Assembly: GCA_963969365.1 (NCBI GenBank)
Contig: OZ017762.1
Coordinates: 124,001 to 188,000 of the forward strand
Length of the DNA: 64,000 bases
Reading direction: 5' to 3'
Source: Asterochloris sp. CNOR1
Lineage: Eukaryota; Chlorophyta; Trebouxiophyceae; Trebouxiales; Trebouxiaceae
Numbering within the stretch: position 1 is the first letter of the stretch; each line of letters begins with the position of its first letter. Shown here piece by piece: positions 1 through 57,843 of the stretch. A program made the translations under genes and the position numbers. Under the pieces are notes generated by a model, which was not told the DNA's origin, searched no databases, and saw only the letters and a program-made list of their open reading frames with translations.

Positions 1-3000
1 CAGCGAGCTCAGCTCCAGGGCCGACCTGCTGCGCTGCATACCTCCCCCCGGGCCTTCAGAACAGGGCGGCGGCTGGCGATGCAGCAGCTGCGGCGGATGC
101 TGCTGCTGGGGCTGCTGAAGCTGCTGCTGTGGCTGGAGGCAGCCAGTGTCCACCACGGCAGGAGGCTGGTGCCCAGGCACCTGGAAACGAAGCAAGGCAA
201 TCAGATTTTGGAGGACTAGGCATCTGCAGGGACTGAATCTGCGCTGGGGCTGGAGGTGGCCGGTACCCACCACCACAGGGGCCTAACGCCCAGGCACCTG
301 CAAGCGAAGAAGAAGAAGGAATAGAAGTTGCAAGGCTGCGCATCTGTTGGAGCTGCTGAGCTTGGGCTAGAGCTGGAGGGGGGTGGTGTCCACTGCTGCA
401 GGGAGCCAAGGTTGGGCACCTGCACGGTAGTGATTAGAGATGTGACAAAGGCTGATCTTCACAAGCAGTGCTGAAGGGCCACGAAGCAAGCAAGTCAGGT
501 GGGGACGTGTCTAAGTTTACCACTGCAGGGAGGGCGCCAGCATGGAAGTTGCTCGCATCTGCAGATGTGGCCTGCATTGGCTCCTTCTAGCGTAGTTCCA
601 TGCACAGCACAGCTTCCAAAGCAAGACACCTGTCCTGCCCTGCAAAAGTTGACGACCAGGGCCCTTCATAACAGCTGGCCGTGACCATATGCTGCAAGGA
701 GCTGCTACAAAAGTGATGCGCAGGTACCAGGCAGCCTCAATTCAGCTGATGTCTCAGCCTGCGCACAGGAAGCATTTCGCAGACAGCCATGATGTAGCCA
801 CTTTTACCTTTGGTGCACGCAACAGGACACGCCAATATTTTTTCCCCAGATAGGTCAAGGAGTCAGCTCCTGGTGGCATGCTTTCTTGCCATTTAGTACA
901 GGTTTCATAATCACCGCCCCCTGAGCAACTTCAACTGCCCCTGAGCATGTACGCCATCAGCAAGCCCATACTGCTTAAAGATGAGGCAGCTTGGTCCCTT
1001 GTCGGTGCCTGTAAACTTCCACGGCCTGCTGCTGGACCAGCGGAGGCGGTTGCAGGGACCCTGCTGCTGTGCATTGTGTCTGTTGTGGTGCACCGCACCG
1101 CCCAAAAGTCACCACTGCCCGCTGCTGAGCCATGGGGTGTTGGCTTGGGTCTGGTTGCAGCAAAGTCCAGCAGGCCTCTGATGAAGTGGAGCTAGGGCTA
1201 AGCAATGCCTCACGCTCACCATTGCCGCCTGCTGGGCCATGATGAGTGGCTCCACAGGGCTACAGCTGCAGCAAGCAGCCTGTGCCTGACAAGGCCCACG
1301 CCTAGTGCAACACACCAACCAGAACTCACCACCACCAGCTGCCGAGACAAGGGCGGGCCCATGAGGTCTCTGCCTGGAGGCGCTCAGAACTGCGCCACCC
1401 AAGGCACCACCGCTGCCTGCCACTGGGCCAGCCCCCCTGCGCCACTGCTGGGGACTCTTCCAGCAGCAAATTGCCTGGATGGGGCCACAGTAGCGCACTG
1501 CTTTGTGCTCACCATTGCCTGCTGCTGGGCCATAGGGGGCTGCTGCAGTGGTCCCGCCTGGAGGTGGAGAGGCTGCAGCGACCCAAACAGGGTGTCCCCG
1601 CCAACAGTGGAAGGCACTGTCTGGAACGGGGATGACGGCAGTTGCCTCGAGACCTCAGGTCCTAGTCTCGCAACTGCAGTGTGAACACAGAGCATCAGGT
1701 GATGAGGTGGCATGGTGCCTTGCCTGCCTGTTGAGTGAAAGATTGCTGTCTGGAGTGCCCCCGATCTGGCTGCCTGGAAGTCCCAGGGCCTATCCCTGCA
1801 AGTGCACACGTCAAAATGAGTCCCTTGGTAGACCGATTGTGTGCTGAGTCAAGGGCGCTGTCCGGATGGGCAGAGGGTGCCTGAAGGCCTCAGGGCCCTG
1901 CCCCGTAACTGCACACAACAGCCAGACACTGTCAGAACAATGATTGCGGTGCCCCGAGGCCCAGGCCGCTCCAACTCAACACAGCAGCCGCCTTGAAGCT
2001 GACTCCTACCCTGCAGCTTTGCAGGGTCTTGGCTCGAGCATCCCTCTGCTAATGGCAGCAGCTGCCGCTGCAAGAGATCCATCCAGCCTGCCTGTAGCTG
2101 CATGCCTAACAGCAAACTGAGCACGGTATGGTTGCTTTGGCGGGGCGCCTGCACCATGGCACTAGAAAGTTTGCTGGCATTGGCACTGCTGAACCAAAAG
2201 GCCCGGCTCCTCTGAAGGGGCTGCCATGGCATGCCGCAGGGTGGCGGCTGTCACCTCATCGATCCTTGTCCTGGACCGGCTTGGGCCTTGGGCCTGCCAT
2301 GGTGATGTGATCTGTTGGGAACTGTGCCAGGACATAAAGTGCGCTGGCCACTTGCCCCAATTTGGTGCCATGCTCGGCTCCAGCAGCTTGCTGGCTCGCT
2401 GCTGATGCAGGCTGAGTCCATGGCATCGCAGCCAGGGACAGGCATGTGCGAGGCTTGATGCCCAGTCAGCAAGGGGGTCGCAGTTGGTGCACAACATGTG
2501 CAGCATAAGAGAATGCCTGCCAGGTTCTTGTTGTGCCTGAGCAATGCGTGAATGCATGAGCAGAGCAGCGCAGTGCAACGCAGCCATACATGCTCATGTC
2601 CACATGACCCTTGATCATACGTGCATGTGCTTGGCCAAGGTGAACGCTAGCATGAGCAAGTGTGCGTCTGAAGCGTCTGTGCGGCAGCCTGGGCAGCAGG
2701 TGCCGTGGTGCCAGGCAGGCAGCCTGCGCCTATGAAGCGCTGTGCAGCCAAGCAGCAGTGACTGTGCCCAGCTAAGGCCACAGGCCCAGTACCTGAAGCC
2801 TCTGGTATTCGCGGCAGGGATCCGAGGAACTGGAGGTCCAGCCCTGGCTCTGGCTCTGGCTCCCGCGCCAGCGATGCCAGATCATTGGCGCTGTAAGCAT
2901 TCCTGTGCAGCTGGCGCCGCGCTGATGCTGGAGTGTCCGCAAAGGGATCCACGTCCAGCACATCAAACAGGCCTGCAGGCAGGGGAGGTATCAGCGCAGG

Positions 3001-3114
3001 CAGTGCACATGATTTAATGGGCAAATTTGCCTGCAGACCTGAGTGTCCCAGAGAGTCCAGGTCCAGGGGAGTGTTGAGCAGGTCCTCCAGTGCTGGGTCA
3101 AGAGGGAGGTCCAT
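1..3114 (-). CDS. Gln-rich probable transcription factor, 5' half (runs off left edge)
   Basis: Four exons join in phase on the minus strand: 3039-3114 (first ATG at 3112-3114), 2793-2972, 1513-1673 and 1-180, giving at least 199 residues. The first two exons encode an acidic, Leu/Asp-rich start (DLPLDPALEDLLNTPLDLD, then a LFDVLDVDPFAD stretch) followed by an Arg/Ser patch and a Glu-Pro run. Exons three and four are Gln/Pro-rich (LQPQQQLQQPQQQ) and end in a RSRSALELSS segment at the window edge. Acidic plus Gln-rich regions suit a transcriptional regulator. The HRNAYSANDL and RSRSALE patches faintly recall the Ser-rich segments of plant bZIP factors, but no DNA-binding domain lies inside the window, so the family is a guess. 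It is head-to-head with GARS. Exon junctions rest on phase and splice consensus only. Confidence 0.55.
225..425 (-). repeat. Decayed copies of the 1-180 exon start inside the preceding intron
   Basis: On the minus strand the real exon begins after a TTTCCAG acceptor at 181-187 with GTGCCTGGGCACC. Two further copies of this acceptor plus about 50 nt of exon lie upstream, starting near 300 and near 425. The first reads GTGCCTGGGCGTTAGGCC and so carries a stop in the exon frame; the second has diverged further. They look like pseudo-exons left by local duplication. Confidence 0.6.
1105..1430 (-). repeat. Decayed copies of the 1513-1673 exon end downstream of its donor
   Basis: The exon ends ATGGCCCAGCAGCAGGCAATG before GTGAGC. 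Close copies of this end, donor included, recur further along the intron: near 1205-1245 (ATGGCCCAGCAGGCGGCAATG then GTGAGC), near 1105-1135 and, weaker, near 1400-1430. The remainder of the intron (about 430-1105) has no supported feature. Confidence 0.55.
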
Positions 3115-3301: not shown

Positions 3302-6300
3302 ATGCTGCCTGCCTGCTCCAGGCATGGCCAGATCAGGTGGCCAGCGCCTGCCAGCAGGAGTGGCGCTCGCTTCAGGTACAGGCTGCTCCTTTGCAGCTGC
3401 CTGCACAATGTAGCAGTCATTGGCAGTGGCGCCCGGGAGCACTCCGTGGCCTGGAAGCTGGCCCAGAGCGATAAGACTGAAGCCATCTACTGCCTGCCTG
3501 GCAATGCTGGCACAGCCCGGGAGCAGAAGTGTAGCAACGTGCCAGCCATAGCTGCTTCGGATCATGCTGAGGTGCTGCTAGTACACCATCCCTGCAATCT
3601 TCCCTCAAATTGAGCCTTGCTGACATTCAGCGCAATGTGTGCAGCGCTGCTTGTAGCCTGGCCCTTGCTGAGTGTGACCACACCACTGCAGAGGCTGGCA
3701 GTGCTGAGAGTGAACGCATTCCTGCAGGCATGGCATCATCAGCATTGCTGTCTGCTGAGCAAGTGATATGCCACTGTAGGTGCTGGCGTGGTGCAAGAAG
3801 CAGTCGATCGACCTCGTAGTGATAGGCCCAGAGGCTCCACTGGTTGCTGGGCTGTCTGATGATCTGAGAGCTGGTGGCTTGCGGTGAGGGCCGGCGATGC
3901 AAGTGCTGCAACACCATGCTGCTACATGTGTGGTCGTGCAGGCTGTCGTGCCCTGTTTGCTGACCATGCTGGCGATCCAACACGCCACGGCATGTATCAA
4001 GGGCTGGTCCTTATTGTGCAAATGATTCAGAGGTCTCCCACAGCAAGCGCTGGGGGCTGACTTCTTTGTAAATTTGCTAGCTCATGCTCAAGGTCTCACT
4101 GAGGGTCTGCACTGATGGCGTCTGCCTGCTATGGTGTCATGCACTGCAATACTGGTGTCTGCCTGCCATGGCATCATGCCTGCCAAGCACGCCGGGGAGC
4201 ATCTGTAGCATTCAGACTTTGCTCAACGATCCTTCTGATGGTTTGCTGAGAAAGGCGGCAGGTGAGGCATAAAAAGGGCACAGGCTTGTAATAAATATTG
4301 TAACCGGCGCTGCTCGCAGTGTTTTTGGGCCCAGCAAGGACGCTGCGCTCCTGGAGGGCTCCAAGATATTCATGAAGGTAGGCCTGGCTAACTTTGAGCA
4401 GCCTGTGACCTGGAAGGCTGCCTGCTGTCTCAAACTCACAAGAGGCTGCGGCTAACTCCTGCATTGTGCCTGGCGTGACCTGCTACTTAGATGAATAATC
4501 ATGTTCATTGACAAGGCAGCCCCCAACAAGCAGGACGCACATTGTCCCGCGGTCCTGGCGACCCCCTGCATATGTTCGAAAACACGCCGCAGCCTGGCTG
4601 CTGTTAACCCAGCCCAAGCCTGCGTGCTACCAGGTGGCAGCCTTCAGTCCCTTGCACCTCGCACATGGGTTTCTTTGCGAGGCGCTGCATGTCTGCTGTT
4701 GCCTGGACAGGCCCTCAGTCAGCAACAATTGGCTGCGCTCTGCCACTCCCTCCTGCAAGGATGAGAGGCACAGCATCCATGCAGCCGCCAATGGCCTCTC
4801 TGTTACCAGCTGCTGCAAGTCACAGGGAGAGTGTGAGCCTGTCGGACTTCTGTGAAAGGGGCTGCATTCCCACAGCGCCCATGCAGTTGATTTCACCACC
4901 TGTAGCAGGGACAACATGTGCCTGCAGGAGTTCTGTAAGAGGCACAGCATCCCCACAGCTGCCCACGCCGTCTTCCACTCAGCGGCTGAGGCCAAGGCCC
5001 ACCTGCAGCAGCAGCAGGCTTACCCAGTGGTCATCAAGGCTGATGGGCTGGCAGGGGGGAAGGGAGTCATCATTGCAGAAGACTTGGAGACAGCCTGCCG
5101 GACAGTCGACAGCATGATCTCAGACGCCCAGTTTGGAGAGGCAGGTTTGCAGATGAGGGTTCTTGCAGAGGGGATTCTTGCACAGGGCGGTGTCTGGATC
5201 TTTTCCTCCTTTTCATTCTTGGGTGGGGACCCTGATGCAACCTCAGAGCGGCAGTTGGCTTGATTGAAGATTTATTGTTGTCCTTTGCATGATCAGCCGG
5301 GATACTGGACTAGCGACCCTGATGCAGCCTCAGGACGGCAGACAGCTTGATTGATCAGTCAGGCTCAGATCTAAGTTGTATGTGCAGCAGTCTGTACCGA
5401 TTCATCTGCTGCAATGGTGGAGGCGTCGCAGGCATATGCATGCCTGAGCAGGGCACTGCAGGGAGGGACTGCAATGACGCTGCCCAGTTAGCCGTGCCCG
5501 GGTCGAGAGGCAGCTTTGTGAGTGCAGCCGTCTGCTGGTGATGCAGTGGGGTCCCGCAGCTTTGAGCTTTAATGGTCTAGTGCTGTCGCTTACCTGGACA
5601 GCTTGGCCAGCTCCTGCTCTCTGCTGCGCAGCTGCAGTGGCCAGCTGTGGTCCAGCATGCCGCAAGTCCTGAACTGCAAGAGGCACTGGCAGATGCAGCA
5701 GCACATCTTGTTCTTTGGGGAGAGCAATGATGCTGCACAGGCTGTGCTGGCTTCTTTGGCGTGTGTGATGGGAGTTGCCATGCAGCGCAGCACATGCTGA
5801 GTCTGGCCGCTGGCCTGCCGTGCTAGCCACAGCAGTGCATGGTGTTGCACTGCCATGCTGCTGCATGCATGTTGTGTCGTCTGGTCTGCCTTGGACGCGC
5901 CACCTTCCAGCTCTTGTCAAATCAGTGGTGCTGCATGCATCGTGCCTGTGCTGGCCTGCTGTTGCCATCACAGCAGCCAGCAACGTGTCTGCTGCGGTCC
6001 TCGGGTGCGCAGGAGCCCCACAGCGGCGCACACGCCGCCTGCACCACACGACATTTTGCTGTATGGGTTGCATGACACAGAGCCCCACATGCTCTGTGCC
6101 CTGCCTACAGACCGCCCCGTGCTGTGATCGGGGCCTGCCCATCACTGTGCATCACTGCTGCCTGCACCGCGGCTTGTGCACCATGGGCATCACATCCTGC
6201 CTGCAGGCAGCACACCGCAGCTATGCGTATCCTGTAGCCTGCAGACCTGTGCCGTTGTCACTCTGCCATCGGTGTGCCACAAAGCCCGACATTGTCCTTG

Positions 6301-9300
6301 CCCTCCCTGCAGGCAGCCGCATAGTGATCGAGGAGTTCCTGCGGGGCGAGGAGGCCTCCTTCTTTGCGCTCGTGGACGGGGTGACCTGCGTGGGGCTGCT
6401 GTCCTCCCAGGTGGGTGGCCGTGCTTTTGTCAGGGCTGACATGCATGCCTGGAAGGGATCACTATCGACATCATCCACAAAAGAGGCTTGCCTTAGCCAG
6501 CACAACAGTGTGTGGGGCTGCCGCTTGTCCAGGTAGCCACCAGGCAAACGGGTTAGGGCCTAATATTGCCAGACGTATCCCAGGGGGCAGGCAAGACTCG
6601 GGTTTGGCTTGCCTTCGTGCAGGAGGGGGCCTGCCTATCGCTTCTGCCTGCCCAGGGTCGTGGCGCGTTAGCTGAAGTGTATGTGTTGAAGGGCAGAGGA
6701 GCCCTGGTGCAACAGGACTCCTCTCTGGCAAAGCAATGCCTGGTGCAACAGGACTCCTCTCTGGCAGAACAATGCCTGGTGCAACAGGGCTCCTCTCTGG
6801 CAGAGCAGAGGAGGCAGGCCCTGCTGGATTGTCAAGCAGATGGAGCTGAAGGTGTTCTGGCAGACACATGCCGGTGACCTTGCGCTTGTGGACGGGCACA
6901 CCTGTCAGAGGCGGCTGCCCTGCGGCTCGAGACCCTGGGGCCCTGCCTGGTGCTTGGCATGGCTGGCCATCTCTTTGGCTAGGCCACAGGCATGCCTGGC
7001 CATCTCAGGCGGCTGAAGCTTGGCCACTTGCTTTGCTGCAGCAGGCCTGCACAAGGCATCTGGGTGGTGGGTCTGGCTGAGTCGATTTCATGTCTGGGAG
7101 CCGCAGCTTGTTGTCTGGCAGCCGCAGGCCTGCTGGCTGCCAAACCCAGCAAGCTTCTTGCATAGCTGGCTTGAGTGAAGCCCAGTGGCTGAATGCAGCC
7201 TGTCATGAGATTTAAGCAGGAGTGCCCTGAAGGCCAGCATGCTGCGCTGCACTCTGTAGGCGTAGGTGTGGGTCAGGGTCTTGCAGGACCACAAGGCTGG
7301 AAGCGAGAGCGGCACAGCCCCCGTCAAAGCCAGTCAGTGTGACCATAGCATGCTCAGCAAGGCAAAATACCCCTAAGGCCCACAAAACTGCAAGCAAAGG
7401 CAGCTCAGTGCCTGATGCGCCAAATTGAGGCCCAAACAGCAAAGGCGACAATGTTGAACTCTCACCTGCCCTGCGCAGGACCATAAGGCTGTGGGCGAGG
7501 GTGACACCGGCCCCAACACGGGGGGCATGGGAGCCTACTCGCCTGCCCCCATAGTCACCCCCGACATGGCGGCCCAGATAATGGAAACCATCGTGCAACC
7601 CACCGCGCAGGGGATGGCAGCCGATGGGCGGCCGTTCTCTGGCGTGCTCTTCTGTGGAGTCATGATCCGGGATGGGAAGGTGGGGCCTGGCCACTCTGTG
7701 CTTGTTGTGTGACGGTGCAGCCCTCCGCACAGGGGAGGGCAGCTGGGGGCTGCCCCTTCTGACACAATGCAGGCTCTCCTTCAGGGGGTCAAATCGTGTT
7801 CTGGGGGCTCAGTTGCCAGGGCTGTCATCACTTGGCTTGTCATCGCACGCACCAACTGCTTGGATGCGTGGCGGCCCCTCCTTGCAGTCTCTGGGGCTGA
7901 ACTCTGTTTCCCACACCTGCCCAGAAGGGAAGCAACCCACTTGCGGGAAACTGCACAACCAAGGCCCACCTCGGGACTCAGCATGCACCGTGCTGACGGT
8001 CGCTCAGAATGCTCATAAGCTGTCGCATGTCCATACAGGCTCTGCTGCTGGAGTTTAATGTGCGCTTCGGGGATCCCGAGTGCCAGGGCCTCATGATGCA
8101 GCTGGAGACGGACCTGCTGGATGTAGTCATGGCCGCCTCAGAGGGGCGCTTGGAGACAGTGCCCCTCAAGTGGTCGTCACAGTCCCATGCGCTGACGGTG
8201 GTGATCGCTGCCAAGGGGTACCCTGGGGCCTCTGAGAAGGGCTGCCAGATTGATGGGCTTGATCAGCAGCTACCTGCCAAGGTGGGACATGCGCTGTGCA
8301 TGCTGCTTGGGCTCCTGCTGTGAAGGCTGCTGCGTTTGTCGCGACATGATTATCCCGACATGGTCAGCAATAGTGTGCTCGTGCCTCGTGCCTCGTGGCA
8401 AAGAGGGAGTTGGCCTCCCTTCAGCGGCACCTGCAAGCACTGTCACTTTGCTGGTCGTCAGATGTGCTGGCAGTGGTGGTTGCCAGAAAGGGAGTATTGA
8501 CTGGGCTGCCACATTGATGAGGTTGACTAGCAGGTATCTGCTGAAAGGGGGTGCTGCCTGAGGTCATGTTGTCAGCGCTACAGATTGACAAAGAGCAGCT
8601 GCCCGCCAAGAAAAGCTTTGCTGCCGCGCTGGCGATGGTCTCCTTTGCCTGGTCCTGGAGGGGGCCTGCCACATTGATAGGCTCCACTCGCTGAGCTGGG
8701 CTACAGTACTGCCATGTGTCTTGCCGTGGGGACTGCTGGGGGAGGTTTCCACCGTGAGGCTACCAGCAAGACCCAGCACATGATTGCTACTGGCCTCAGG
8801 TGATTCGCAGGGGGCTCCACTGCGAGCTGCGTGCCAGGGTGGGTCCTGCAGCTCCGACTCTTGCATTGCCCCCTTTGAAGGGCACCGCCTGCAGAGGCGG
8901 GCCGGACAGACAGCTCCCACCAGAAGGCTGCTCGCATATGCGCACAGCTGATGCTTGATCTTCACCTGAGCTTGTTGCGGCCCGGGCAGCAAAGGGGCAC
9001 CCACAAAGCTTCCTTGCCAAGCAGTGCCAGTGTCGCCAGTAGAGCTACATGGGTCATATTGCGGGACCTTGTTGATGTGATCAGGTCTGCAAGCATTGCT
9101 CAATGCTCAGGAACCTTCTTGTTGATGCCTTTCCCATCCTGTTCATGCCTGCAGCTGTTCCATGGCAGCACCTACATTGGGGAGGACGGCACAGTCAAGT
9201 CTGGCGGCGGCCGTGTGATGTGTGTCACCGCCACAGGCAGCACTTTGCAGGAGGCACAGCAGAAGGCTTATCAGGCAGGTTTTCTTGGCACTTGCCTTTA

Positions 9301-9515: not shown

Positions 9516-12500
9516 TTAAACAATGGGGATCTCTAGCGACTGCTCAATGCTCTTGACAAACTCAATGGCTTCCTCCACAGTTGGCTTGGTGACCATCAGC
9601 TCTGCCACCCATGTGGGCATGCCATCAGTGACAGCTGTGCACCGCTGACCAGCCTGCACCAGCGGGCGGGCGTACAGGACGTCTGGGTGTGTCTCCCATT
9701 CCTGTAGGCAGGCAGAGTTGTGTTGAGCTCAGTTGCTGCACTGTGCTGTCTTATGAGCTCAGTTGCTGCACTGTGCTGTATCAGGACAGCTGGCATCTTC
9801 AACAAAAGGGAGTTGCCCCAACATATGTCAATGCCCCATGCCTGGCAGGACATGATGTGCTGAAGCATGCCAAAAAAGCACACATCAGGCCGCTAAAGCC
9901 CTTCAGATGTTCTGCTAGCGTGCCGCATGCTGCCCTACCATCAGACCCGAGGCGCACAACTCAAGTCAGTGGTTGAAGTGCCCTGCTGACCTTGAGGAAG
10001 TCAGTGTTCTGCATGCGGCCAGTTTTGACAGCATTGATGGAGTACTCAGCGATGTGCATCAAGGGGTGCTTGGACACCTGCGGCCTTGCAGGGATGCCAG
10101 CTGTCACTAGCAGGTGCTCCTGCAGGATTGGAAGCAAGGATCATTGCACTGTTTGAAGTGTCAAGACTGCTGGCCAATTAGTGCGACTGGGGTCCAGTAT
10201 TCAGGCTTCAGGGAAGCAGGCAATCGGCCGTTGAGCAATTTGGTGTGGTCAAAAGAGGCCACAAATGCTCAGAGCTACAACTGACCAACTCAGATCACCC
10301 CAGACCCCAAAACTTCAACATCAAGAGTTCGACATCAATGCAAATTATGACATTGACCAACATGGGTATCCCCAGGCTTACCTCCACCATGTCCACTCCC
10401 CAGACGAGCAGGTTGGTGTTGCGCACAGGGCCGCCGCCCATGCGGCAGTTGATCTCTATGAGGCGGGGGCCTCGCGAGGTGTACTTGAGCTCCACGTGAA
10501 ACACACCCTATAGGCAGGAAACAGGAACATGAGCCGTGGACTGAGCCGTTCAAGCTGTCAGATGCTTTTGGGCTGCAGGAGCAAAGCCTGATCTGTGTAG
10601 AGGGGTTCTATTGAGACACGCAGAGGGCAGCTCTGTGCAGGCCGTGAAAGAACATGCAGTCTGTCAGTAGTGTTCATCATGTTGCTGTTAGTATCCTGTT
10701 ACAGGAGGAGGCATTGATGGGGGGGTTTGCACACGCCACAAAGCACTCAAAGCGCATAGCCACTGTCACAGGCACACCTCAGCAAGGCTGTCAGCCAAGC
10801 ACATCGGCGCGCAGGCACTGCACAGCCTGCTATGACCTCAACAGCTGGCCCCTGGCACACCCAGGCACTGCCCTAATCCCTCAATCATCCCTGGTGCTAA
10901 ACCTGGCACACACAGGATATGCACTGCAGACCCACTCAGGCCAACGTGCAACCAACACATGCTGACCATCTGGAAGCCCAGGCCTGCACACACTGGCTGC
11001 CAGCTCTCTCAGCTCCGCTGCCATAGCTAGTGTCATATGCCCATGTCATGCCAACGTCACAAGACTCGCCATGCACTCTTCATCTGGCAGCACAGGCACT
11101 GCAACCTCCAGCCACATCATCCAGCATCCACCTGTCGTGGACAGAATCCAGTGTCTTGACAGGGTCATGATCTGCTCAGTACGGACTAACAACAAGCCAC
11201 AATATGTCCACGCCCATAGTTGTTGCAGCCCATGGCAGCCTATGACTCACCATCTGGAAGCCCAGGCACTGCACAGCCTGCACAGCCAGCTCAATCAGCT
11301 CCTGCTGCTGTTTCATGGGCAGGATGGAGGGGCAGTTGCTGCCTGTCTCGTTGAAGTAGGGCTCCACCGTGGGCCAGTTGTCAGTGATGGCGCCGTACAC
11401 AGCCTGCAGCCCAGTCACATGAATGTTGACATTGCAACTTGGTTGAAGCAGGGCTCCACTGTGGGCCAGCTGTTTGTGAGGGCGTCGTACACAGCCTGCA
11501 CAGCTCATTCACAAGTGGCTTGTCTCTGGGCTTCACTGTGCACCAAGACGCCATAGACAGCCTGCAGCACAGCTCAGAAACGCCCCGCTTTTTGAAGTGG
11601 GGCTCCATGGTGGGCTGTTTGTTTATGATTGCGCCGTTACAGCCTGTATCAGTCTCCATTCAGCAACATGGCAGCCCCAGGCTGGAGCAGGACTCCATTG
11701 AGTTTGGAACAACCCTCACCAAAGCACGCCCTGTAAGGTGCTGTAGATATGATGGCCACTGGCAGTCAACTGGACGCCGTCCTCCCCATGCACAATGAAC
11801 CCCGTAACTGCTCTGAAGCAAGCAGCAAGCAGTCTTTGGCAACCCTGACCAGCCTCTGTGACACAATCACTTCCAGCAAAGGTCTCTGCAAGACTACCTT
11901 AGCTGTCCCAACAAGTCAACTCCATTCCCAGTGCAAGACCTCAGGCCCTTGCCTTGCCCAAGACCTGGCCGACAGACTACACACTGCCTCAGATTACAAG
12001 TCAACCCACCTGCCCCTCGGAGAGTACCAGGTCCACGTCCACCTCAGGCCCATCCAGGTACTCCTCCAGCATCAATGTCATCTTTATCCAGCTGCTTGCA
12101 TTCCCCTGCAGGCAGACAGAAGGATTGAGAAGCAACCTGCGGTGAGGGACTTGGGCAGGCAGAGAAGGGCAGTGGTGCAAATGCATTGCACAGCAACAGG
12201 GCCATCTAGGGTCATGCACTGCACATGTATAATGGAACGACGCAGGCACCTGATGTTTTCATTTCACTGGTCTCCCTCAGAATGACACGATCTTTTGCCC
12301 AACATTCTGCACATCAACAGGGCTTGCCAGCCCCCTGCCACACAGGGGGTGGCTGACCCACTCGCATGCTTGGCGACCTGGGGCCAAGGCAACTGCTTTT
12401 GAGCCCCTGAGCAAAGGTAATCTCCCTGGTGGACAATATATATTCACTGTATGGTTTATAGCCTATATGTTATTGTGCACTGCCAGGAAGCCACAAGCGC

Positions 12501-35465: not shown

Positions 35466-35579
35466 GGTCCTGGTCAGGAGGGTCCCTGCTGACTACCAAG
35501 GAGGCCAAGTAAGCTCACCATGCTCGATTGCTGTCGCGGAACTCTTTGGGGTGGGCTGCTTAACATGATCTGGGCCTGC

Positions 35580-43700: not shown

Positions 43701-44580
43701 ATCAATGCAATCCGCTTGTCCATCCACGCTACATTGATGGTTGTGGCCGCCAGCTTCATGTCTGTGCATGCTGCTTCACGCTGCGTCCTGGATCTGCAGC
43801 CAGCCCTGACACAGATTGTGGAGCAGTCACCCAACACCTTGGTAAGGCCAACATGATTGTGTTCGTCTTCAACAGAAGGCTGGAGACTGCTCCACAATCT
43901 GCGTCAGTCTCATTGGGCTCGCGAGTGAGCTTGTGACAGCGCTGGGCAGCTGCTCTGTAAGTCGCGCCTCCAGACCGTGCATGACAGCCGCTGCGTGCTG
44001 CAGAATTGAGTTGAAGTTTTGGGACGAAGACCTTTTTGGGCAGACTCACGCTTGCTCTGCAGCATTCTGGACCCATGAGCACAGGACATAAAGGCCGTCC
44101 AGGTGAGCTCAATGCCGATGGCAGTCAGGCCTCAAAGCAAACGCCTGACCTGCCCTACAGAGCAACTCCAGCTGCCTGGATCAAGTCCATCTCTGCCCTG
44201 TTTGCCGGGGTGACACCATGTGCTTTGGCTGCTGGAAGGGTGCCTGAGCAGAAGCATGTGCTCTGGCTGCTTGAAGGGTGCTTCCTGCAGCATGCCTTCA
44301 TCAAGCGCGGCATTGCACGCTGAGAGCCAGAGCCTCAAGCTGCCTCCACAAATGCTGCGATGGCCTAGCCCCCTTCCTTCACTAGGTTTTGTTGTACCTC
44401 GTCAGGCCCTGATGCTGTCAGGGCCTGGTGGGAGTCCAATAACACCAAGTGGGAGAAGGAGCCAGTGCAACGTTGATCACCCAACAGGCGAGGCCGCCAC
44501 TCTGCAACAGCCTGTGCTGGTGCCCAGGCGGGGTCTGTAGTGGGTTCAAGTATATTCGCAGCAAAGCGCTTCTGTAAGTC
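40750..44580. other. Decayed paralogous sequence, no resolved gene
   Basis: Contains the third copy of the 31.2/32.6-kb block (41240-41510), an open plus-strand stretch at 41490-41800 (GSLPGLCWMLHETLPYMGSD), the second EDAVIVRTVKLRP block (42120-42460) and a short plus-strand candidate at 43263-43339 (MQVIKEVRPPNFIALTTADL). 44405-44580 is another weak copy of the 35.3-kb block. Confidence 0.4.
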
Positions 44581-47200
44581 TGCCTTGCACAGGCGCTGTG
44601 CCAGACTTGGCCTCAGTTTACACATCTCCCCGCATCAGCAAATGCAGTCAGGAGGGTGCCTTCCTGGACCCCCAAAGAGGCCAAGAAAGCGCATTGTGCT
44701 CAACCGCTGTCACAAACTCTGTACGGTTGGCTGCATGACATGTGGGCCTGCCTGCGCGGGTGTACTGAGGTGGGGCGGCCCCTTGACCTGACTGCTGCAC
44801 AGCACTTCCCAGAGGGGTCCCTCCCACCCAAGCGGGGTTGCTTCAGCCCACCAGCACAGAGCTGGCTGCATCCCATGCTTGCCTCTGCAGGTGTCTAAAA
44901 CTCCTCATTCTGGCTGCTGCTCAGGGCTCCCCCTAGCAGGACTCCTGGTTGGCCCTGCTTCAGTGGTCCACTGTCGCCCCGCACCAGGTGTGGCTGCATG
45001 AGACCTTGGGCTGTCCATGCAGGTACCTTGAGGCGGGGCGCACGTGGTCATAGCTGTTGCAGCTCTGCCCACATGAGTTGTTTCCTGAGCAGGACTCATC
45101 AGCGGTCCTGTTGCAGCCCACCAGAGGTTTGAGGCAGCCCAGAGGCCTGCATGACTGCCCGCAGTGGGCCCAGTGGCTCTGGCAGAGGACGCCGCCCGTC
45201 TTGACGGTGGCATCATGAGAGGCGATGGGAGTTTGGAGGGGCAGGCGCTGAATGGCATCGCAGGGACACATGGTGGGCTTGAATGTGAGCGGTTGAGGGA
45301 GCCTGCCCAGGCGGCAGCTGGCCTTGAGCTGCAGTTGCCATGTCAGGCTTTGATGTGGCGTGTCGCAGGCCTGAGTGTGCCCCTGCTGCTGCCTGAGCTG
45401 CCCCCTCATTCAGGGCTGCTGCCTTCAGAGCCGGGCAGGTATTATCAGCCCAGACTCAGCCATCCCCTCAGACCCAGACGGGCCGGTCAGGGCTGCCCTT
45501 CTGCGCCGCACACGCTGGGGCAGCAGACTCCAGGGATCTACAACTGTGTGAGTGCCAGGTTGACCCACAGACATGAGCAGCTGCTCTGTCAGGCCTCTGA
45601 GCACACCTCCCCACCACTGGGCCCCATTGGCTCAGTCTCTTTCGCCTGGAAACCACTAGTGAAGTGGTTTCCAGGTCAGATGCTGATGGCTTGATGGGAC
45701 ACAGTGTTGCTGAGGTGCTGCTTTGCCAGCCTCTCAGTAAGCCTAACAGCAAGCATCCGGCAGTGTGGCAGCCACTGGGCAGGACCAGATTGGTAGACCA
45801 ATCATGCTATGTTGCACTGGCCTGCCCAATGCTTGGCCCCAAAGACTGCAAGCAGGCTTGGGCATGCTGCTCCAGTCTGGAGTGCTGAGACTAATCGTGC
45901 ACGTGCGCCTCAGAATCTCTGCAGGAGCACTTTGATAGACGCAGTGTGATGATCCAAGTCTGACTCCGTGATCCAGCTGCAGCAAAGCGGTTTAAACTCT
46001 GTATTGGGCTTTGCCCTTGGGTCACGTTCTTTATGCAGAAGCGCTATACTATAGAGCGCTCCACCATCCGGGGTCTGACTCTGTACCTCAGAATCCCTGC
46101 AGGACCAGTGATCAATGCGCAACGTGGAGACTGCAGCTGTGTCCTAGGCACTTCACTGGGAAAGTATTGATGAGGCTCTCGCAGGCGGCTCCGGCGTCAA
46201 AGGCGTCTCTGGGGCCTTTGACACTGGAGATGCCTCTGGGATTCCTGTCAACACCTGCCCAGCGAAGGCTGCCTGCAGGAAGCCGCCGCAGCTGTTTCAT
46301 GGCAGGATGCTTCCCCCAAGCACCCTAGCACGTTCATCAAGTGAGCACAACTGCAAGCTGCTGCGTGCTGGCCAGCAGTGACTGACTTGTTACAGACGGC
46401 GGTGCGCTCAGCGCCCCAGCTCGCACCGCGTGTGCATGCTCCGACTGCCCACAGCGTCACTGTCGTTGCACATGACATGCCTGCTGTCTGTGGTTCCCAG
46501 ACTGACCTGCCTCATCAACAGCAGAGACACAAACCCACTCAAGTGGCTGTGCGTGCTCTGATGCCTGACCTGGCAGCTTCATCAGCTGAGGCAAGGTGGG
46601 TTCCATGTTGTGCAGTCTCCCCAAGACCTGTAAGGACACTGGCCTGATGTGGAAGATGGGTCTGTGATGCTGTGGACTTGTCTCACTTGCTGCCTGCCTG
46701 CGGTAGCGCCGCCTGCCTGCTGTAGCCGATGTTGACGGCTGCAGCAGGAGAGGCAATTGGGGGTCATGCTCGGATGCATCTGATCCCCATATGGGCAGGC
46801 GCTGGATGGCGTCGCAGGGGTGCATGGTGAGCTGCATGAAGGTGAGAGATAAGAAGGGGGAGCCTGCTCAGGCGGCAGCTGGCCTTGAGCTGTGGTTGCC
46901 ATGTCAGGCTTCAGTACGGCGTGTCTCAGGCCTAAGTGCGCCAGATCTGCAACCATCTCGGCAGGGAGGTGGCAAGTAGTGTCAGCATGGCTTGCTTGCG
47001 CCACAAATGTGCGAGGTGTCCAGCCCGCAATGCACTGCATGCTGTGGCCAAGGCAGCAGGTTTCTTGATGGCCCCTCTGCCATTGGCCGCCCCGCTGCTG
47101 ACTGCTTGACTCAAAACTGCACCACAGCAAGCTGCAGCCTTCCTACAAACACAGTGGTCGCATGTCATATGCGCCCTGCAGCTGTCCATGCGCATTTTAC
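44581..47200. other. Second, more decayed copy of the 35.5-37-kb region
   Basis: 44755-45190, 45195-45440, 45470-45790 and 45745-45930 align in order with 35580-36115, 36116-36360, 36490-36790 and 36790-36970, an offset of about 9 kb. 46725-46960 is a further partial copy of the Gly-rich exon block. Frames are interrupted throughout. Confidence 0.5.
45645..45675. repeat. Perfect hairpin, 13-bp arms, 5-nt loop
   Basis: CCTGGAAACCACT (45645-45657) pairs exactly with AGTGGTTTCCAGG (45663-45675). The paralogous site at 36690-36712 keeps the left arm but its right arm stops after AGTGGTTT. Confidence 0.85.
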
Positions 47201-50554: not shown

Positions 50555-53500
50555 TCAAGCACCAACTGTGAGGCTGTTGCAGGCTTGCATGGCCTGCTGG
50601 GCAAAATACTTGACATCAGTGTCATCGTCCTCCATCAGCTCTTGCAGGCAGGGCTTGATTTGCTGGGTGACCACAGTGGGATTCAGCAGGGGCGCCAGGC
50701 CTTGCAGCTGCTTAGCCACATTAAATTTGATGTTGGGGACCTGCAGTGGCAGGACAGAGGGTTGAAGTGCTGTTGTTGTCACCTGACAAGCTCATAACAG
50801 CCAACGCTCGTCAACAGCCCTGAAAGCCCATGCAATGCACAAGTGCCGACATGCATACTGCAGGCACTCTACCTTCAGTTACAACCTTCGGTCTACAATA
50901 GCGATAGACCATCATGGACAGCCTGCCCACTCCAAAAAAAGTTTGTGCACACAGCGGCACACCAGAGGTTCCAAGTACTTGCCACAACGAGCAGCCCCCC
51001 TTTGAAAAGTCTCTGGCACAGCTCAAACACTAGACTTAAGAAGGTCTCTATCATCAATAGGTGTGGCTTAGCTGAACCTGTACTTCCACCAGCCTAAGTG
51101 CATGCATCACGGACCTTGTCGCGGGCACATGCCACCATGACTGGCAGCATATTGTGGCATAGGCAGTCATGGGGCACAGCCGGTGCCAGGGAGGCAATGG
51201 CCACCAGGACCGTCATCCTGTACAGGTAGTGGGGGTTGTCGATCATCCCCAGCACCTGCAGGAGAGGAGAATGTAGTGAGATCATGAGGGTGCGCACTGT
51301 GCAGCGTGACAGTGCATGCTGTCCTGAACAGGAACTGGGCATTGTTGATGATACTCAGCAACAATGAGGCATTGAAAACAGGCAGGCACCAGCAAGGCAT
51401 GAAAGTCAGGCAAGCACCAGCAGGGCATGAAGAATAGGCAGTGGTTGTGTGTGATGAGCAGCTGCGCGGCTGGCAGCCCCGCTGGCTGCCCTGCAACTTC
51501 CTGCTGGCTGGAGCATATGAGCATGTGTGAGCATAACAGCTTGACGAGTTGTGGGCGCTCAAAGAGATCACCATGATGCACAGCAGACAAGCACCTGTGC
51601 TGGGAATGCGCTGCACCACCAATCACCAAGTCAGATGATTCAACGTGGATTGTGGCAACGGACTGTGTACCCAGCTTGGTCTTGAATAAGGCCATCCTTG
51701 CAAGCTGTGACCTCACAGCACCTAGGCATGCAAGTGCTGCCGGGCACTTTGCAGTGCCTGGACGCTGCACCTAGAGGCCCACAAGTCAGCACACCTGGGG
51801 GACAAGGTGCTCCTTGGCCCAGTCTGGCCCAAACTCCCTGGCCAGCCTCTGCAGGTTAGCTGTGGCAGCCTCACGGATGCTGAAGACCTGCAAGCAGCAG
51901 CCAAGACGGCAATTCTCAATCTGATTTGAGCACATGCAACGCCATGCAACCTTCAGAGGTACACTGCCAGCACGCAGGATGAGCAGCTACTCAAGGCACG
52001 CACAGCACTCACCTGGTTCTCCTGCCACTTCATGCACAGCAAGCTGCTGCTCAGACAGCTTGGCATGCAACCTCCAGAGACACACTGCCAGCAGACAGGA
52101 CAAGCGATGAGCTAAGGCGCCCACTGCACCCACCTGGTCCTCCAGCCACTTCATGCACTGCGTGCCCAGCTGCTGCTCAAATAGCTCGGCGCCCAGCTGG
52201 CTGGCCAGCAGGGGGATGTACTCGATGATGGCCAAGCGCACCCTCCAATGCTTGTCCTCAGCAAGCTCCTCAATGGCGGGCAGCAGGCTCTGGGCTAGCA
52301 GCTCGATGCCAATCACCTGCAGGGCACGAACAGGCAACTCTTAGATGACTCATCAAGACACTTGACCAGCAGCTTCCAGCCAGCGTCCTCCACAGCAGTG
52401 GGACAGGCTCTGGGCTGCAGCTGACCACTGTAACGCCCTGCAAGCATGACCTTTGCCAGATCCTCAAGGGCGCCCAGCAGCGTGCTCATTCCCAATGAGC
52501 TGCAGGGGGTTAAGGTCCGCCCTCAACGAGCCAACAGATGGCTGGCAGCAGCCTCCAGAAGATGACGGCCAAACTGGGGTCCAGTCAAGTGCCGCTGTGG
52601 TGTGTGCACAGTCACCACAGCTGCGTCTGATCGTTGCTGGCAGCAGGCTCAGAACCAGCATCTCAATGCCAAAGGCCTGCAGGAAGATGAGTGGGGCTCA
52701 AGCGGGTGCTGGCCCTCAGACAGCACCTGAATGCAATGGTGCTGACTTCCTGCTTTACCTGGTTGACCTGCTCCAGCTTGCCGATGATGTTGAGCCTGAC
52801 CTCTGGGAAGTCGTCCTTCAGCAGCGACAGGAACACAGGCAGCAGGTGCTCGATGGTGGCGCTCTTGCCCAGCACAGGGGCCACCTCCATGACCACAGAG
52901 GCAAGGGCGGAGCGCACATACTGGGAGGAGTCGGCCGCCAGCTCCTTGACACAGGGCAGGATGGCTGACACCACCTGCAGGCAGTGGGAAAGAAGTGAAG
53001 GAGCACCTCCAGAGAGCACTGGCAGAAGGACGGGACCTTGCCAGACTTCTGCGGTGAGCCAGCTTCACGCCAATGTGACGAAAATTTAGGAGGCTAGCAC
53101 GTCAACTGCTGGGAGGCTGCCTTGACCTGCCAACAACCAGAGCAAGCATGGGCTTGTCTCACCTGGTCTGCAGTGAGCACCTTGCAGAAGGCTGCCACCT
53201 TGCCGGCTGCAGCCACGCGTACCTCTGCCTCGCTGTCACGCAGGACCTTGTCAAAGCAGGGCACCAGCTCAGTCCTGCAGGGCACAAGTGTCGCAACCTC
53301 TCGAAGTCAGGGCTATGGGCCTGACCGAGATGCCAGCACAGCCAGTCCACTGCACAGGACCCGGGAAAGCAGGGCACAATTGTGTCCTGCAGGGCACAAG
53401 GAACATCCTCTGTAGCTGAGGGCAGTGCTGTGGAACCGAATGGGCTGCCAGCACAGCCAGACCATCGCACAGGACCTTGACAGAGCAGGGCACCACTGCC

Positions 53501-56500
53501 GTCCTGCAGTGCACATGTGACTTCCTCTGTAGTTGAGGGTGCTGTGGGGCTGAATGCGCTCTCAGCACAGCCTCAGTGCTAATCTGCATTGGGACAGAGC
53601 AGGGCACCAGCTCTGTCCTACAGAGCAGGCAAGGACCCAGAAGTAAGAAGGAGGACATCTCAGCCTGTGGGTCAAGCAGCTGCATTGGATACATGTGAGT
53701 GGTGAAGCATCATATGTGTCACGCAGCACTAATGGCCAGCAGGGCACAGCCCCATCCTGCAGGAAGGTGGTGCAGTGGCTCTGGTTGTAAGGAGTAGGAC
53801 AGAAGTCAGGAATGTGAGAGCTGTTAGCAGTGCAGGCAACCTCGACTTAAAAAGCCTGGCTAGTCCAGTGCACACTGCGACACCAGTACATGGCTTGCCT
53901 GGCCAGCTCTGGCCCCAGCCCCTCGCATAGCTGCGTCAGCTGCTGCGCCACATTGTAGCGCACCCTCCAGGACTTGTCCTGCAGGTGATGCCATGCTGCT
54001 CAGCTAGTGGCAGCAGGCCTGTCCATTGCTATGCTGACCAAGGGCGGCATGCAGTTCAGGCCTGCACTGTCCTTGAAAGTCCACAGATCCAGGCTGACCA
54101 GCCCCAGCATGCAGTTCAGCCCTGCGCCGCCCTTGGTGCAAGACCAGAGCTGTGCTGACAGAGAGGCCTGATGATTACTTAGAACCAAAGCCCCAAGCAC
54201 ACCCTTTCGGCATCCAGCGGGGCACAGCAACGGCACTTGACCTGACACAGCTGCCCTTGTTGCCAGGCAGGGGCCACTCTGCCCACATCAACAGACAGGC
54301 AAGCTCCAATGAGCTCTTCCGGGTTGATGCAGGGTCTCTGGGCCCATGCAGCCAGATCTCAGTTGAGCAGATGGCCCTGCGGGCCTCCGTGCAGCCACCA
54401 TTGCCACACCCTCCCAATGGTGCAGGGCCACAGCTGGGGCCTCGCCTTGACAAGGGCTCTGCAGGCAGCCGGCCTCACCTCTGACAGCCTCTGCACGATG
54501 GGCAGGATCTGCTTGACAGCCTCCTGCTTGCTGAGCAGCTTTGCGATGGGGCCGCAGGCCTCCACAGCAAGTAGCCGCACAGAGTCCTGGTCTGCAGGCA
54601 CCAAACAATAGGGCTTGGCAGTATGCCCTCAGGGCTGCTGGGAGACAGCAGCAATGTCAACGTGCAGTTGACCATGGCTGGCTTGACCAGTGGGTAGGAG
54701 CCCACCAAACATGCAGCCCACTGAACATGCAACGAGGCACAGACAGGTGCACATGCCAGTGGGTGGGAGCCAACCAGACAAGTCCATGCAGCTTTTGTCT
54801 CTGGCTGATCTTGGTCTCACTGCTCACTGCTCCCAGCCAGCGCAGTGGGCGGCAGAGCTGTGCAGCTGGAGGCCTGGCCTCACAGAGGGGTGTGACATGG
54901 GCTCCAATATCCGGGAACCCTGAAGATGTAGACCTGATATGCAGAGCACCGCCCGCTCACCGTCCTGTGTTAGATCCTGGAACGCCGGGATAATCTCACG
55001 TCCTATCAGGTCTGCCTCCACCTGCTCTGCGTAGCGCCCCAGGTGCTGGGCAGCCGCTCGCCGCACCTGCACATGGCATCAGGACTTGTTCACACAGTCT
55101 GTGAATGCAGCACATGCCACAGGGCAGGGGCAGCACAGGCACTTTCGTGCAGCACGCAGCGTGGCACAGGCTGGCCGGGCAGCAGGTGGGCATGCTGGCA
55201 GACCACATGGCTCTTCCCAACCTTTTCTTGTGTCAGACAGGGGGTTCCACGGTCGACGCTGCTCAGGAGGACTGGCATCGATGAGATTGGCTGCATATGC
55301 CTGCCGCTTGGAAGTGCAATATAATATTTTTGAGCAGCAGCTGTGACCTCACCATGGGGGTCTCGTCGCGGCACAGCAGGCCGTACAGCTGGCGAAGGTC
55401 CGCCCGCTGGCTGCCTGTTGTGCGGGCATAGGCCCCAGCAAAGAGGCCGCAGGCGCTGATGCGCGAGGTGAACCACTCCCCAGTCGCCAGCCTCTGCAGC
55501 GCAGATGAGGGAGGAGGCGTCGTTCAAGCTGCAAACATCCATGGAACTGCTGCTTAGCAGAAGGTGGACACTGGGGCCCAGCAAACAGGGTACAGGTGCT
55601 GGTGCATAAGGTCAACCACTGCCCATCTGCCAGCCACTGCAGCGCAGATAAGGAGGGGGTGGTGGCAAGCATTTGGGTAGTCTGACTGAGCCAGAGTTTG
55701 CGCCCAGGCATGCAGGCGCTGATGTAACAAGCCGCTCCCCCTGTCTCGCCCTCTCCAGCAAATGTAACAGGAAGCTCAGTGATGGGGCTGGGCAGAGGGC
55801 TACCTGGTCATCATGGGTGTCACCTGGTGCTCACGCTGCTGCCAAGCAATTAGTTCGCGACTTGGATGCCGGGGCCATGGTGTTCCAAGATGCTCCTGTC
55901 TGGCAGCTGGGACACCCCCACTATTCAGCGATGAGGCGCAAAGAGCTGCTACCACATGCATCCCCTGCTGCTCAGGCAACAGCCAAGAGAGGGCCACTGA
56001 CCTTCACCAGGGGCACATAGTGCTCGGATATGCTCCCGTCGGGCAGCTGGGCAGCCACCTTGTTCAGCGACTCCATGGCCTTGTCCCTCACCACAGTCTC
56101 CTCCACCACTGCCAGCCCCTCGAGGGGAGCCAGCAGGTGGTGAGCATGCTGGGGACCACCCACGTACTGGACAAAGGAGCCCAACTCGGCTGCCATGGCC
56201 AGGAGCACCTGCAGCAGGTGGGGCCCGGCTGAGGCAATTGCAGCATGCCCTTGTGGCCATAGTCAGAGATGCTGTCTACATGCTGAACAAAGGAGCCCAA
56301 CTCGGCTGCCATGGCCAGGAGCACCTGCAGCAGGTGGGGCCCGGCTGAGGCAATTGCAGTATGCCCTTGTGGCCATAGTCAGACGTGCTGTCCACATGCT
56401 GAACAAAGGAACCCAACTCGGCTGCCATGGCCAGGAGCACCTGCAGCAGGTGGGGCCCGGCTGAGGCGATTGCAGCCTGCCCTTGTGGCCATAGTCAAAA

Positions 56501-57843
56501 TTGCCTTCCACATCCCTGGACAAGGTGAGGCACTTGCAGGAGGCAAGTGGCTGCCCTGCAACACATCATCATGCATCCGCATGCAGCCGCGCAGCAGCAG
56601 AGACAACCTTCTGGGTGCTCCCAGCTTGACGCACTAAAGACATACCTCGTCTTCATCGTCATTGCTCTCGCACAGGAAGGGCACCAGCTCCTTGCGGGTG
56701 CGCTCCTCTCCCAGGGCCAGCGCGATGGTGCTGAGGCGCTTGACGCTGTTCAGGCGCAACGCCACATCCTCGTTCTTGAGCTCATCTCTGCAGAGCGAAA
56801 GCAGTCAGGGTGAGAGAGGAGAGGAGTAAATTCACAGGTTTGGCAGTGCCCTGCTGCAGTTCCACAGCACCCGCGCACAGTGACGGCAGCGATGATCAGG
56901 TTGGACAGCACAGGCACCAATGTGAGATGCTTGCCACTGTCGAGGAGCATTGCCTTGATATGAAGCTCATCTGCACCAGAAAGACAAGGAGCTGAGTTCT
57001 GTTCCCTCTTCAGTCCAGTCCAGGGGCACAGGCAAGGCTGGGCCCAGCACCCCTCACGCTGACACGCTGGGCTGCTGGCAGTGCTCCCATCTGCCAGCTT
57101 ATCTGCACAGATGACAAACATGTCAGTCTCCCCCCAGCGCCAGCCCAGCTCTGGAGTCGTAAGTGACGCAGTTCAGGCGCACAGGGCTGCGGGCTTGTTT
57201 TAGACCTTGCATTCTTGAATTTGACTCTGCAGCGCTGTGCAACTTGCTCTGCAGCTCAACTGGCAACAGCAAAACAGCACACATGGCGGAGGACAGCTAC
57301 ACTGCCAGATGGGATGCTGCTGGCCAGTCCAGCGCTGCCTCGACATCTGCAGGCAGCTGTTTGAGCACTTCCAGCTCAGTGCAGAGCCAGCTACAGGCCC
57401 AAGGCCCCAGCGGCAGTCAGCTGGACTGCTGCAGGCATTTCCGTGCAGCGCTGCTGCAGCAGCCCTGCATCCAGTCGCATGCGCTCGCAACAGCGCACGA
57501 AACCTGGAGAGCTAGCATCATTGATGGACAATCCTGGCCCAGCAGGCATGTGCGATGTAGATGAGGCCCAGTGCAGAGCAACAGCCTGCGCTGTTTCACA
57601 AACAGGGCGGGAGGACGTAGTTGCAGAATGTGCAAGGCCCGCATGCTGCACAGTGCATTCAGACGCCCAGTCGCTCTCTGCAAGCCTGGGTTGGGTGCTG
57701 AACTGAGTACTGCAGCCCAAACCACACCTGAGGGACCTCTGCCACACCTGCCATGCGTGAAGCGCAACGCTGTTTTGTTGAGCAATTCGAACTCACATCA
57801 GAATGGCAATGGGGTACAGCGACTTGTCTTCTGGCTCCCCCAT
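50555..57843 (-). CDS. PP2AA: PP2A scaffold subunit A (PR65), 13 exons
   Basis: HEAT-repeat scaffold that holds the catalytic and regulatory subunits of protein phosphatase 2A together. Exons 57797-57843, 56646-56787, 56002-56208, 55353-55493, 54961-55066, 54479-54591, 53899-53978, 53163-53274, 52759-52974, 52134-52316, 51795-51887, 51115-51255 and 50555-50740 join in phase to 588 residues, the usual length. Landmarks: [20 protein letters not shown] at the start, [74 protein letters not shown], the highly conserved [34 protein letters not shown] and [13 protein letters not shown]. Each exon carries roughly one or two helices of the 15 HEAT repeats. Exon 1 is only 47 nt and lies about 1 kb from exon 2. 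The donor after 53899 is GC rather than GT. Confidence 0.96.
52010..52075 (-). repeat. Copy of PP2A-A exon 10 end within intron 10
   Basis: Exon 10 ends CACTTCATGCACTG / GGTCCTCCAG (plus-strand view, 52134-52160). The same edge with donor recurs at 52010-52060 (CACCTGGTTCTCCTGCCACT). The spacer also repeats CCTCCAGAGACACACTGCCA against TTCAGAGGTACACTGCCAGC near 51955. Confidence 0.65.
53365..53765 (-). repeat. Serial copies of PP2A-A exon 8 start
   Basis: The exon 8 start, seen on the plus strand as AGCAGGGCACCAGCTCAGTC then CTGCAG (53256-53280), recurs at about 53370-53400, 53482-53510, 53595-53625 and 53738-53765, all in the same orientation and each followed by a CTGCAG- or CTACAG-type acceptor. 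Spacing is about 110-140 bp and similarity falls with distance. Confidence 0.7.
56171..56515 (-). repeat. 116-bp tandem triplication containing the start of PP2A-A exon 3
   Basis: Repeats begin at 56171, 56287 and 56403 (ACAAAGGA(G/A)CCCAACTCGG on the plus strand), with a few differences between copies. Each contains the intron 2 acceptor and the first 38 nt of exon 3 ([13 protein letters not shown]). Only the copy at 56171-56208 is joined to the rest of the exon; the others sit upstream in the intron. 116 is not a multiple of three, so using an upstream acceptor with read-through would shift the frame. Confidence 0.9.

Follow-up and report, generated by a model that had tools for sequence, protein, structure and literature searches.

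Introns of the green alga Asterochloris sp. CNOR1 contain copies of the edges of their own flanking exons, and these copies are real and far above chance. They were studied in a 64,000-nucleotide (nt) stretch of contig OZ017762.1 (positions 124,001 to 188,000; C17:124001-188000 in the contig numbering used here), hereafter the window, and in genes elsewhere in the 56.4 Mb genome of 21 contigs. The copies are probably the product of short tandem duplication of a generic kind followed by neutral decay. A sequence-only reading of the window had claimed that introns hold degenerate, same-strand copies of the adjoining exon edge and lengthen by repeated duplication across that edge.

Exon-edge copies in their own introns

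The intron sample outside the window was built from Pfam exon matches across the genome to Cpn60/TCP1, HSP70, class I tRNA synthetases and kinesins (kinase and AMP-binding matches were left out) and comprises 31 gene regions on 15 contigs. The exon matches were chosen by hand; most rows with internal stops were excluded at this stage and the remaining few were removed later. A small gene finder trained on the matches from these 31 genes learned the donor motif (A/C)AG-GTGAG and a very strong acceptor motif, CTGCAG-G (hyphens mark the junction). One intron was solved per pair of adjacent exon matches with nearly contiguous profile positions. All 112 of 112 pairs were solved, with a median intron of 413 nt and a runner-up within 2 score units in four cases; one intron of more than 1,500 nt was left out and the other 111 were used. 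GC donors occur in 7 of the 112 homology-verified introns. For the window, 36 introns of four genes (PP2A-A, GARS/purD, an ATP-grasp ligase and a GIN-like gene) were derived from regional gene-finder exons, from which short spurious exons had been dropped by hand. Counted among them is GARS intron 3572-4323, which ends in GTGTT, not AG, so that its acceptor is doubtful, and in which no copy was detected.

In the edge test only the first or last 60 nt of an exon were aligned to its own intron, with a threshold score of at least 26, and the controls were introns of other genes (100 per edge) and the reverse complement of the own intron. Among the 31 genes, own-intron copies were found at 17/111 donor edges (0.33 expected) and 15/111 acceptor edges (0.34 expected), that is, at 32/222 edges against 0.67 expected. 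The reverse complement gave 0/111 donor and 1/111 acceptor matches, and the other flanking intron of the same exons, on the wrong side, matched at 1/70 and 0/70 edges. In the four window genes copies stand at 18/72 edges, in 16 of the 36 introns, where 0.55 edges were expected. An earlier run on 87 introns with a score of at least 24 (10 donor and 11 acceptor edges) is superseded by the test on 111 introns.

The splice motifs CTGCAG-G and AG-GTGAG are common in this genome and could favour spurious matches, but matched controls from other introns predict about 0.33 hits per edge side where 15 to 17 were observed, and the reverse-complement and wrong-side controls are nearly empty. Chance or CTG/CAG composition bias is thus refuted at the present sample size, and its probability is practically nil. 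The claims that same-strand copies occur on both donor and acceptor sides of the adjoining intron, and that random background does not account for them, are therefore borne out by a comparison of own with unrelated edges in homology-supported introns. As to their being a genome-wide habit, this applies to the sample covered, namely 31 genes spread over 15 contigs, and the window. The figure of one to four copies per intron applies where copies are found; the majority of exon edges carry no legible copy.

In a comparison of the sampled loci with one another and with the window, no dispersed family emerged: of 53,244 intron bases, 443 have a match elsewhere in this set.

Arrays in the PP2A-A gene

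The PP2A-A gene, confirmed by a solved homologue in the Protein Data Bank (PDB; E 1e-212), carries both young and decayed copies:

56160-56497, minus strand: young tandem array of three units, period 116 bp, 2.9 copies, 94% matches
53253-53635, minus strand: older acceptor-side array upstream of exon 53163-53274, period 113-117 bp, about 70-79%
52404-52672, minus strand: start of exon 52134-52316, in four decayed copies on the acceptor side within intron 52317-52758 (edge test)
52013-52064, minus strand: donor-side copy of the last 57 nt of exon 52134-52316, 79%
55577-55635, minus strand: start of exon 55353-55493, one acceptor-side copy, 76% (edge test)
55871-55911, minus strand: donor-side copy of the end of exon 56002-56208, 81% (edge test)

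The 116-bp units of the young array are almost identical; in each, an intron stretch of about 70 nt that ends in CTGCTGCAG is followed by the first 42-49 nt of the exon. The exon itself comprises the last unit only (from 56208 downwards), and the other two lie inside intron 56209-56645; these two are extra and intronic because the first and last peptide repeats match the same residues of the PDB PP2A-A. The array breakpoints lie at TTGTCCAG, which is common to exon and intron. In the older array the surplus residues proposed by the gene finder amount to an 18-amino-acid insertion relative to the PDB protein. The four decayed copies in intron 52317-52758 are at 52404-52422, 52455-52480, 52538-52555 and 52636-52672, and the last also emerged as part of a local duplication (52276-52323/52636-52683). 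CTGCAG acceptors survive in the intronic copies of this gene, together with open pseudo-exons of 45 nt that pass as exons in the gene finder. The copies misled this simple program into extra mini-exons, which is relevant to annotation.

Anatomy and decay of the copies

In the 31 genes, 39 copies were found at 32 edges, four of which carry two to four. Their exon cores measure 16-60 nt (the query being limited to 60), and they lie at a median offset of 165 bp from the original, 27/39 of them beyond 130 bp. Local repeats are overwhelmingly direct: 99 direct and 2 inverted pairs within 900 bp reach at least 34 bits, and 52 direct and 1 inverted reach at least 40 bits, where dinucleotide shuffles give none. 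The strong direct pairs have offsets of 60-600 in 51 of 52 cases. Tandem Repeats Finder, run on the gene loci and the window, reported a period of at least 30 in 13 of 53 rows, and 28 of the 31 gene loci are without any.

The presence of own-junction exon sequence inside introns might suggest that the introns were themselves born as duplicated exon, by the AGGT model or by break repair. A comparison of the end of exon 1 with the start of exon 2 gave 5/111 introns that beat all 100 controls (about 1 expected), none of them at score 26; repeats of 5-12 nt, as in staggered-break repair, fall outside the range of this test. The AGGT exon-duplication model of Rogers places the end of exon 1 at the 3' end of the intron and the start of exon 2 at its 5' end, whereas 36 of the 39 copies start within half an intron length of their own edge (the exceptions are at 0.52, 0.61 and 0.70). 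Moreover, the sequence flanking the copies does not resemble the exon on the far side of the intron: over the 39 copies the mean z is 0.07, and in 2/39 the match outranks every control. Intron birth is for these reasons a very improbable source of the copies. The same absence of continuation into the next exon led to the rejection of insertions derived from mRNA.

When copies are compared with their exons, codon positions 1, 2 and 3 show nearly the same share of mismatches (62/417, 51/412 and 76/409), as in neutrally decaying DNA, and coding constraint on the copies finds no support; the slight surplus at third positions is expected, because the exon itself undergoes silent changes. Donor-side copies have kept G at +1 in 10/23 and T at +2 in 10/23, within the range of neighbouring positions, and acceptor-side copies have kept G in 10/16 and A in 8/16. 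The notion that the splice site is included in the copy is plausible as regards origin, and remnants are frequent, but the site itself has often been lost. Selection could also have kept the copies as decoy splice sites or alternative mini-exons, an account that finds some support in the open pseudo-exons of PP2A-A and in the nature of the changed donor +1 positions, 9/13 of which are G to A. The even codon-position mismatches, the unexceptional retention at +1 and +2 and the partial state of the majority of copies all speak against it, and its probability is low. The G to A changes are suggestive of selection that inactivates copied donors, yet identity at +1 and +2 is not clearly below that of neighbouring positions.

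Similarity had been said to fall with distance from the exon. This does not hold as a rule, since the nearest detected copy scores best at only 7 of 12 multi-copy edges (6/8 in the window, 1/4 in the 31 genes). The ranking was counted by eye on above-threshold copies only; a nearer copy in PP2A-A intron 53275-53898 (about 53361-53387) fell below the threshold and is outside it.

Generic duplication or targeting of the exon edge

Two accounts were weighed for the position of the copies. According to the first, short local tandem duplication would be frequent in this genome and not aimed at exon edges, as the age distribution of the pairs indicates. Unit lengths in the young arrays of the window are 36-116 bp, and simulation points to units of about 60-130 bp for the old copies. 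Units internal to exons would be removed by selection, whereas those internal to introns would be tolerated but would soon become unreadable, because both copies mutate. Duplications that cross a junction would be tolerated because the extra copy is spliced out, with splicing presumably keeping the outermost donor or acceptor. Since the exon is conserved and only its intronic duplicate accumulates changes, such duplications would remain recognisable for roughly twice the time. The outcome would be serial, fading copies of the own exon edge and splice site within introns. Most old copies would then have originated from units crossing the junction, the intron part of which is not readable.

According to the second account, copying is targeted to the junction, for example by break hot spots, R-loops or microhomology of splice motifs, and carries 20-75 nt of exon with the splice motif into the adjoining intron. 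In its favour, the same test that detects copies at 32/222 edges in the 31 genes matches the rest of the own intron in only 4/105 intron middles, 6/105 heads and 2/105 tails, and exon interiors in 3/187. The copied stretch ends near the splice motif, many copies lie farther off than one unit, and extension on the intron side is poor (mean z 0.63; a steady-state simulation matched for identity gives 2.6).

The age split bears directly on this choice. In 147 introns (the 111 and the 36 of the window), edge pairs and interior pairs were compared with the expectation for random placement. Pairs of at least 85% identity over at least 30 nt are divided 6 to 6 between edge and interior (3.6 edge pairs expected). 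Those of 75-85% identity show 31 edge to 5 interior (12.6 expected) and those below 75%, 7 to 1 (2.4 expected). None of the 64 pairs, all within 80 nt of junctions, is exon to exon, which points to removal of exon-internal units by selection. Dominance of the edge only among older pairs is predicted where a constant exon adjoins a decaying intron.

Simulations of a single age lead in the same direction. With 0.3-0.4 substitutions per site and units of 60-130 bp they yield core identities of 0.81-0.82, cores of about 40 nt and an intron-side z of 0.5-1.4. At this age 32-55% of junction-crossing duplications are recovered, whereas a random mid-intron window recovers an internal duplication in 0.8-3.8% of the introns having one; at 0.1 substitutions the corresponding values are 82% and 52%. 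Steady-state simulations had first pointed to junction-specific, exon-only copying, an interpretation that was dropped once the single-age simulations and the age split had explained the same features. With edge copies masked, intron-only sequence at offsets of 20-120 also shows direct self-similarity, 5-7 times the control (17/24 matches) or 20-57 times (21/30).

Targeted copying is therefore considered unlikely: old duplications, when simulated, yield a weak intron side and absent internal pairs; young pairs are evenly divided between edge and interior; and young junction-crossing arrays include long intron parts. It is concluded that duplication is generic and that exon edges mainly render the duplicates legible, with a modest edge preference among young pairs being possible. 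Of the proposal that introns lengthen by repeated local duplication across the boundary, duplication with intronic decay is well supported by the own-edge excess, the direct strand, the intact young units of PP2A-A and the near-even decay; the boundary itself need not be special.

Several observations weigh against generic duplication with neutral decay. The young edge pairs slightly exceed random placement, two of the six coming from one PP2A-A array, and pairs shorter than 30 nt, whatever their identity, are divided 7 to 1 in favour of the edge (2.2 expected). Steady-state simulation with duplication everywhere gives an edge to mid-intron ratio near 1, against about 4 observed. In most old copies similarity on the intron side is nearly absent, the 16-mer profile ending at about +4 for donors and about -12 for acceptors. 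Past the core, similarity on the exon side has mean z values of 0.35 and 0.42, lower than the values of about 0.9-1.7 in the best-fitting simulations. Longer simulated units produce more exon-interior copying than is observed. Since 27 of the 39 copies lie beyond 130 bp, past the fitted unit, serial duplication or later insertions must be assumed. Inverted similarity within the own intron is also raised, 1.7-2.4 times the control at windows of 20-24 nt and 9.8 times at 30 nt, so that part of the intron-internal signal may be local composition. Finally, none of the 39 copies in the 31 genes reaches 95% identity over more than 20 nt, which a constant rate does not fit; the window has one copy at 98% identity. 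Given this shortage of young copies, an earlier burst or a loss of young copies must be added to the model. Young copies are perhaps lost since duplicated splice sites compete.

If about a third to a half of junction-crossing duplications are still readable at the age suggested by simulation, the 14% of edges with a copy would imply that roughly a quarter to nearly half of all exon edges have been duplicated into their intron. It seems possible, although the idea is tentative, that introns here are largely palimpsests of repeated short tandem duplications, in which the edges act as fixed clocks of intron growth, perhaps recording a past burst with little activity now.

Copies in other genes of the window

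GARS/purD was confirmed by PDB purD (1.5e-103) and by GARS_A, both of which also support its exon 4928-5144. The ATP-grasp ligase occupies 9522-17462 on the minus strand and is likewise confirmed by solved homologues (3.4e-23); its closest PDB entries are the bacterial L-amino-acid ligase BL00235 and BacD. The exons of the GIN-like gene (25181-29847, plus strand) are gene-finder predictions. The start of the predicted gene appears GIN/DUF2807-like. A Pfam scan of ten open reading frames of the window, two of them from this gene, gave no match at E 0.01. The copies in these genes and the arrays internal to introns are as follows:

4764-4887, plus strand: start of GARS exon 4928-5144, copied twice on the acceptor side (4845-4887, 77%; 4764-4789, 85%)
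8503-8541, plus strand: end of GARS exon 8039-8281, one donor-side copy, 82%
11442-11637, minus strand: start of exon 11251-11403 of the ATP-grasp ligase, copied twice on the acceptor side (11442-11495, 87%; 11592-11637, 78%)
10809-11103, minus strand: end of exon 11251-11403 of the ATP-grasp ligase, copied three times on the donor side (11081-11103, 10967-11021 and 10809-10830)
16816-16921, minus strand: ATP-grasp ligase, 69-bp tandem unit across the acceptor of exon 16760-16831; 16 exon and 21 intron nt align, 89%
28965-28999, plus strand: start of predicted exon 29248-29376 of the GIN-like gene, one acceptor-side copy, 83% (edge test)
27901-28076, no strand assigned: tandem duplication inside an intron (73%, offset about 72 bp), bordering on predicted exon 28077-28150 but free of exon sequence
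13931-14307, no strand assigned: young intron-internal tandem array in ATP-grasp intron 13606-14866, period 98/182 bp, 83-89%, away from exon edges
6703-6807, no strand assigned: intron-internal tandem array in GARS intron 6411-7478, 36 bp, 2.9 copies, 94%

The ATP-grasp copy 11442-11495 belongs to a 92-bp unit (acceptor 11403) that is directly contiguous with the original. In the 69-bp unit of the same gene (acceptor 16831) the breakpoints lie at a common AGCTGA. The 6-8 nt shared at the breakpoints of two young units suggest, from these two cases, slippage or duplication mediated by microhomology.

Most of the places that had been singled out by eye recur here. Own-edge copies were recovered at 4757-4890, 8465-8700, 11430-11650, 52010-52075, 53365-53765 and 56171-56515, and weakly at 26468-26535 (score 27, against 25 for the best of 100 controls). 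The copy at 16880-16925 corresponds to the 69-bp junction-crossing unit; it falls below the threshold of the 60-nt edge test because it includes only 16 exon nt. At 27900-28076 there is a true tandem duplication, but it is wholly intronic and merely adjoins the predicted exon. The copies claimed for the left-edge gene (225-425 and 1105-1430) are not established: a duplication (115-259/233-376) is present in that region, but homology-supported exons were looked for there and none was found.

Relation to known systems and significance

Duplication within genes is reportedly common: a survey of recent internal gene duplications is attributed to Gao and Lynch (2009), which is not known to have scored decayed exon-edge copies. 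Introners, copies of one element inserted into many genes, likewise change introns on a large scale within a genome. They are the subject of a PNAS paper of 2022 (PMC9860276). An introner or transposon family was rejected here for the sampled loci, which share almost no intron sequence.

A single tandem duplication across an intron-exon boundary is reported for the potato RdRp gene, in work that also mentions an 83-bp duplication within an intron (Ma et al. 2016, PMC4974935). The unit there, as in the PP2A-A array, joins the 3' portion of an intron, splicing signals included, to the 5' portion of an exon. In potato one gene is concerned and the duplicate created a new intron, whereas in Asterochloris the units stay in an existing intron, are serial and affect many genes. 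A contiguous direct repeat that spans intron, splice site and exon, as in potato, is found in the PP2A-A 116-bp unit and in the ATP-grasp 69- and 92-bp units; the repeats are also direct and local, as the 99 direct and 2 inverted pairs indicate. Intron gain through duplication is treated in earlier work (Lehmann et al. 2010, PMC2891723; Yenerall and Zhou 2012, PMC3443670). In that model exon sequence is duplicated locally in tandem and one copy turns non-coding, as here. However, the duplication is of the exon interior, leaving an intron of unit size between the copies, whereas here the unit crosses an existing junction and lengthens an intron.

Among the literature matches listed (titles and beginnings of abstracts, with few subscription papers covered), none describes serial decayed exon-edge copies as a genome-wide feature. 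Junction-crossing duplication is known from single cases, and its frequency here appears new. Little is known of how introns grow longer in the absence of transposons. Should duplications across junctions be as frequent as this, the conserved edges of exons would serve as an internal yardstick: every decayed copy would date one duplication in DNA that otherwise resists alignment, and a single genome would reveal how fast introns grow, by units of what size and with what age profile. The copies are, in addition, raw material for alternative splicing.

Further observations

The gene structure of the window is intron-rich and its G+C content is about 53-60% per 4-kb step. Three dispersed copies of a long repeat (75-80% over 0.6-1.3 kb) lie within 20576-24792, probably a mobile element or duplicated gene. 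Within 31000-47000 many blocks resemble one another, and several are separated by about 5 or 9 kb (among them 35067/40113 and 36499/45457); they probably represent an element cluster or a gene family. A tandem array of the 15-bp unit GCTGCTGAAGCTCAG in 9.8 copies occupies 62140-62289. Elsewhere in the genome, the 43,319-bp contig C19 (locus L001) has an open frame of 713 amino acids that includes a complete kinase domain, in contrast to the intron-rich genes elsewhere, and is perhaps of organelle, symbiont or contaminant origin. Two HSP70 exon matches of equal score lie 25 kb apart, at C13:1549656 and 1574821; they are likely the result of a recent segmental duplication, which could serve to date intron decay.

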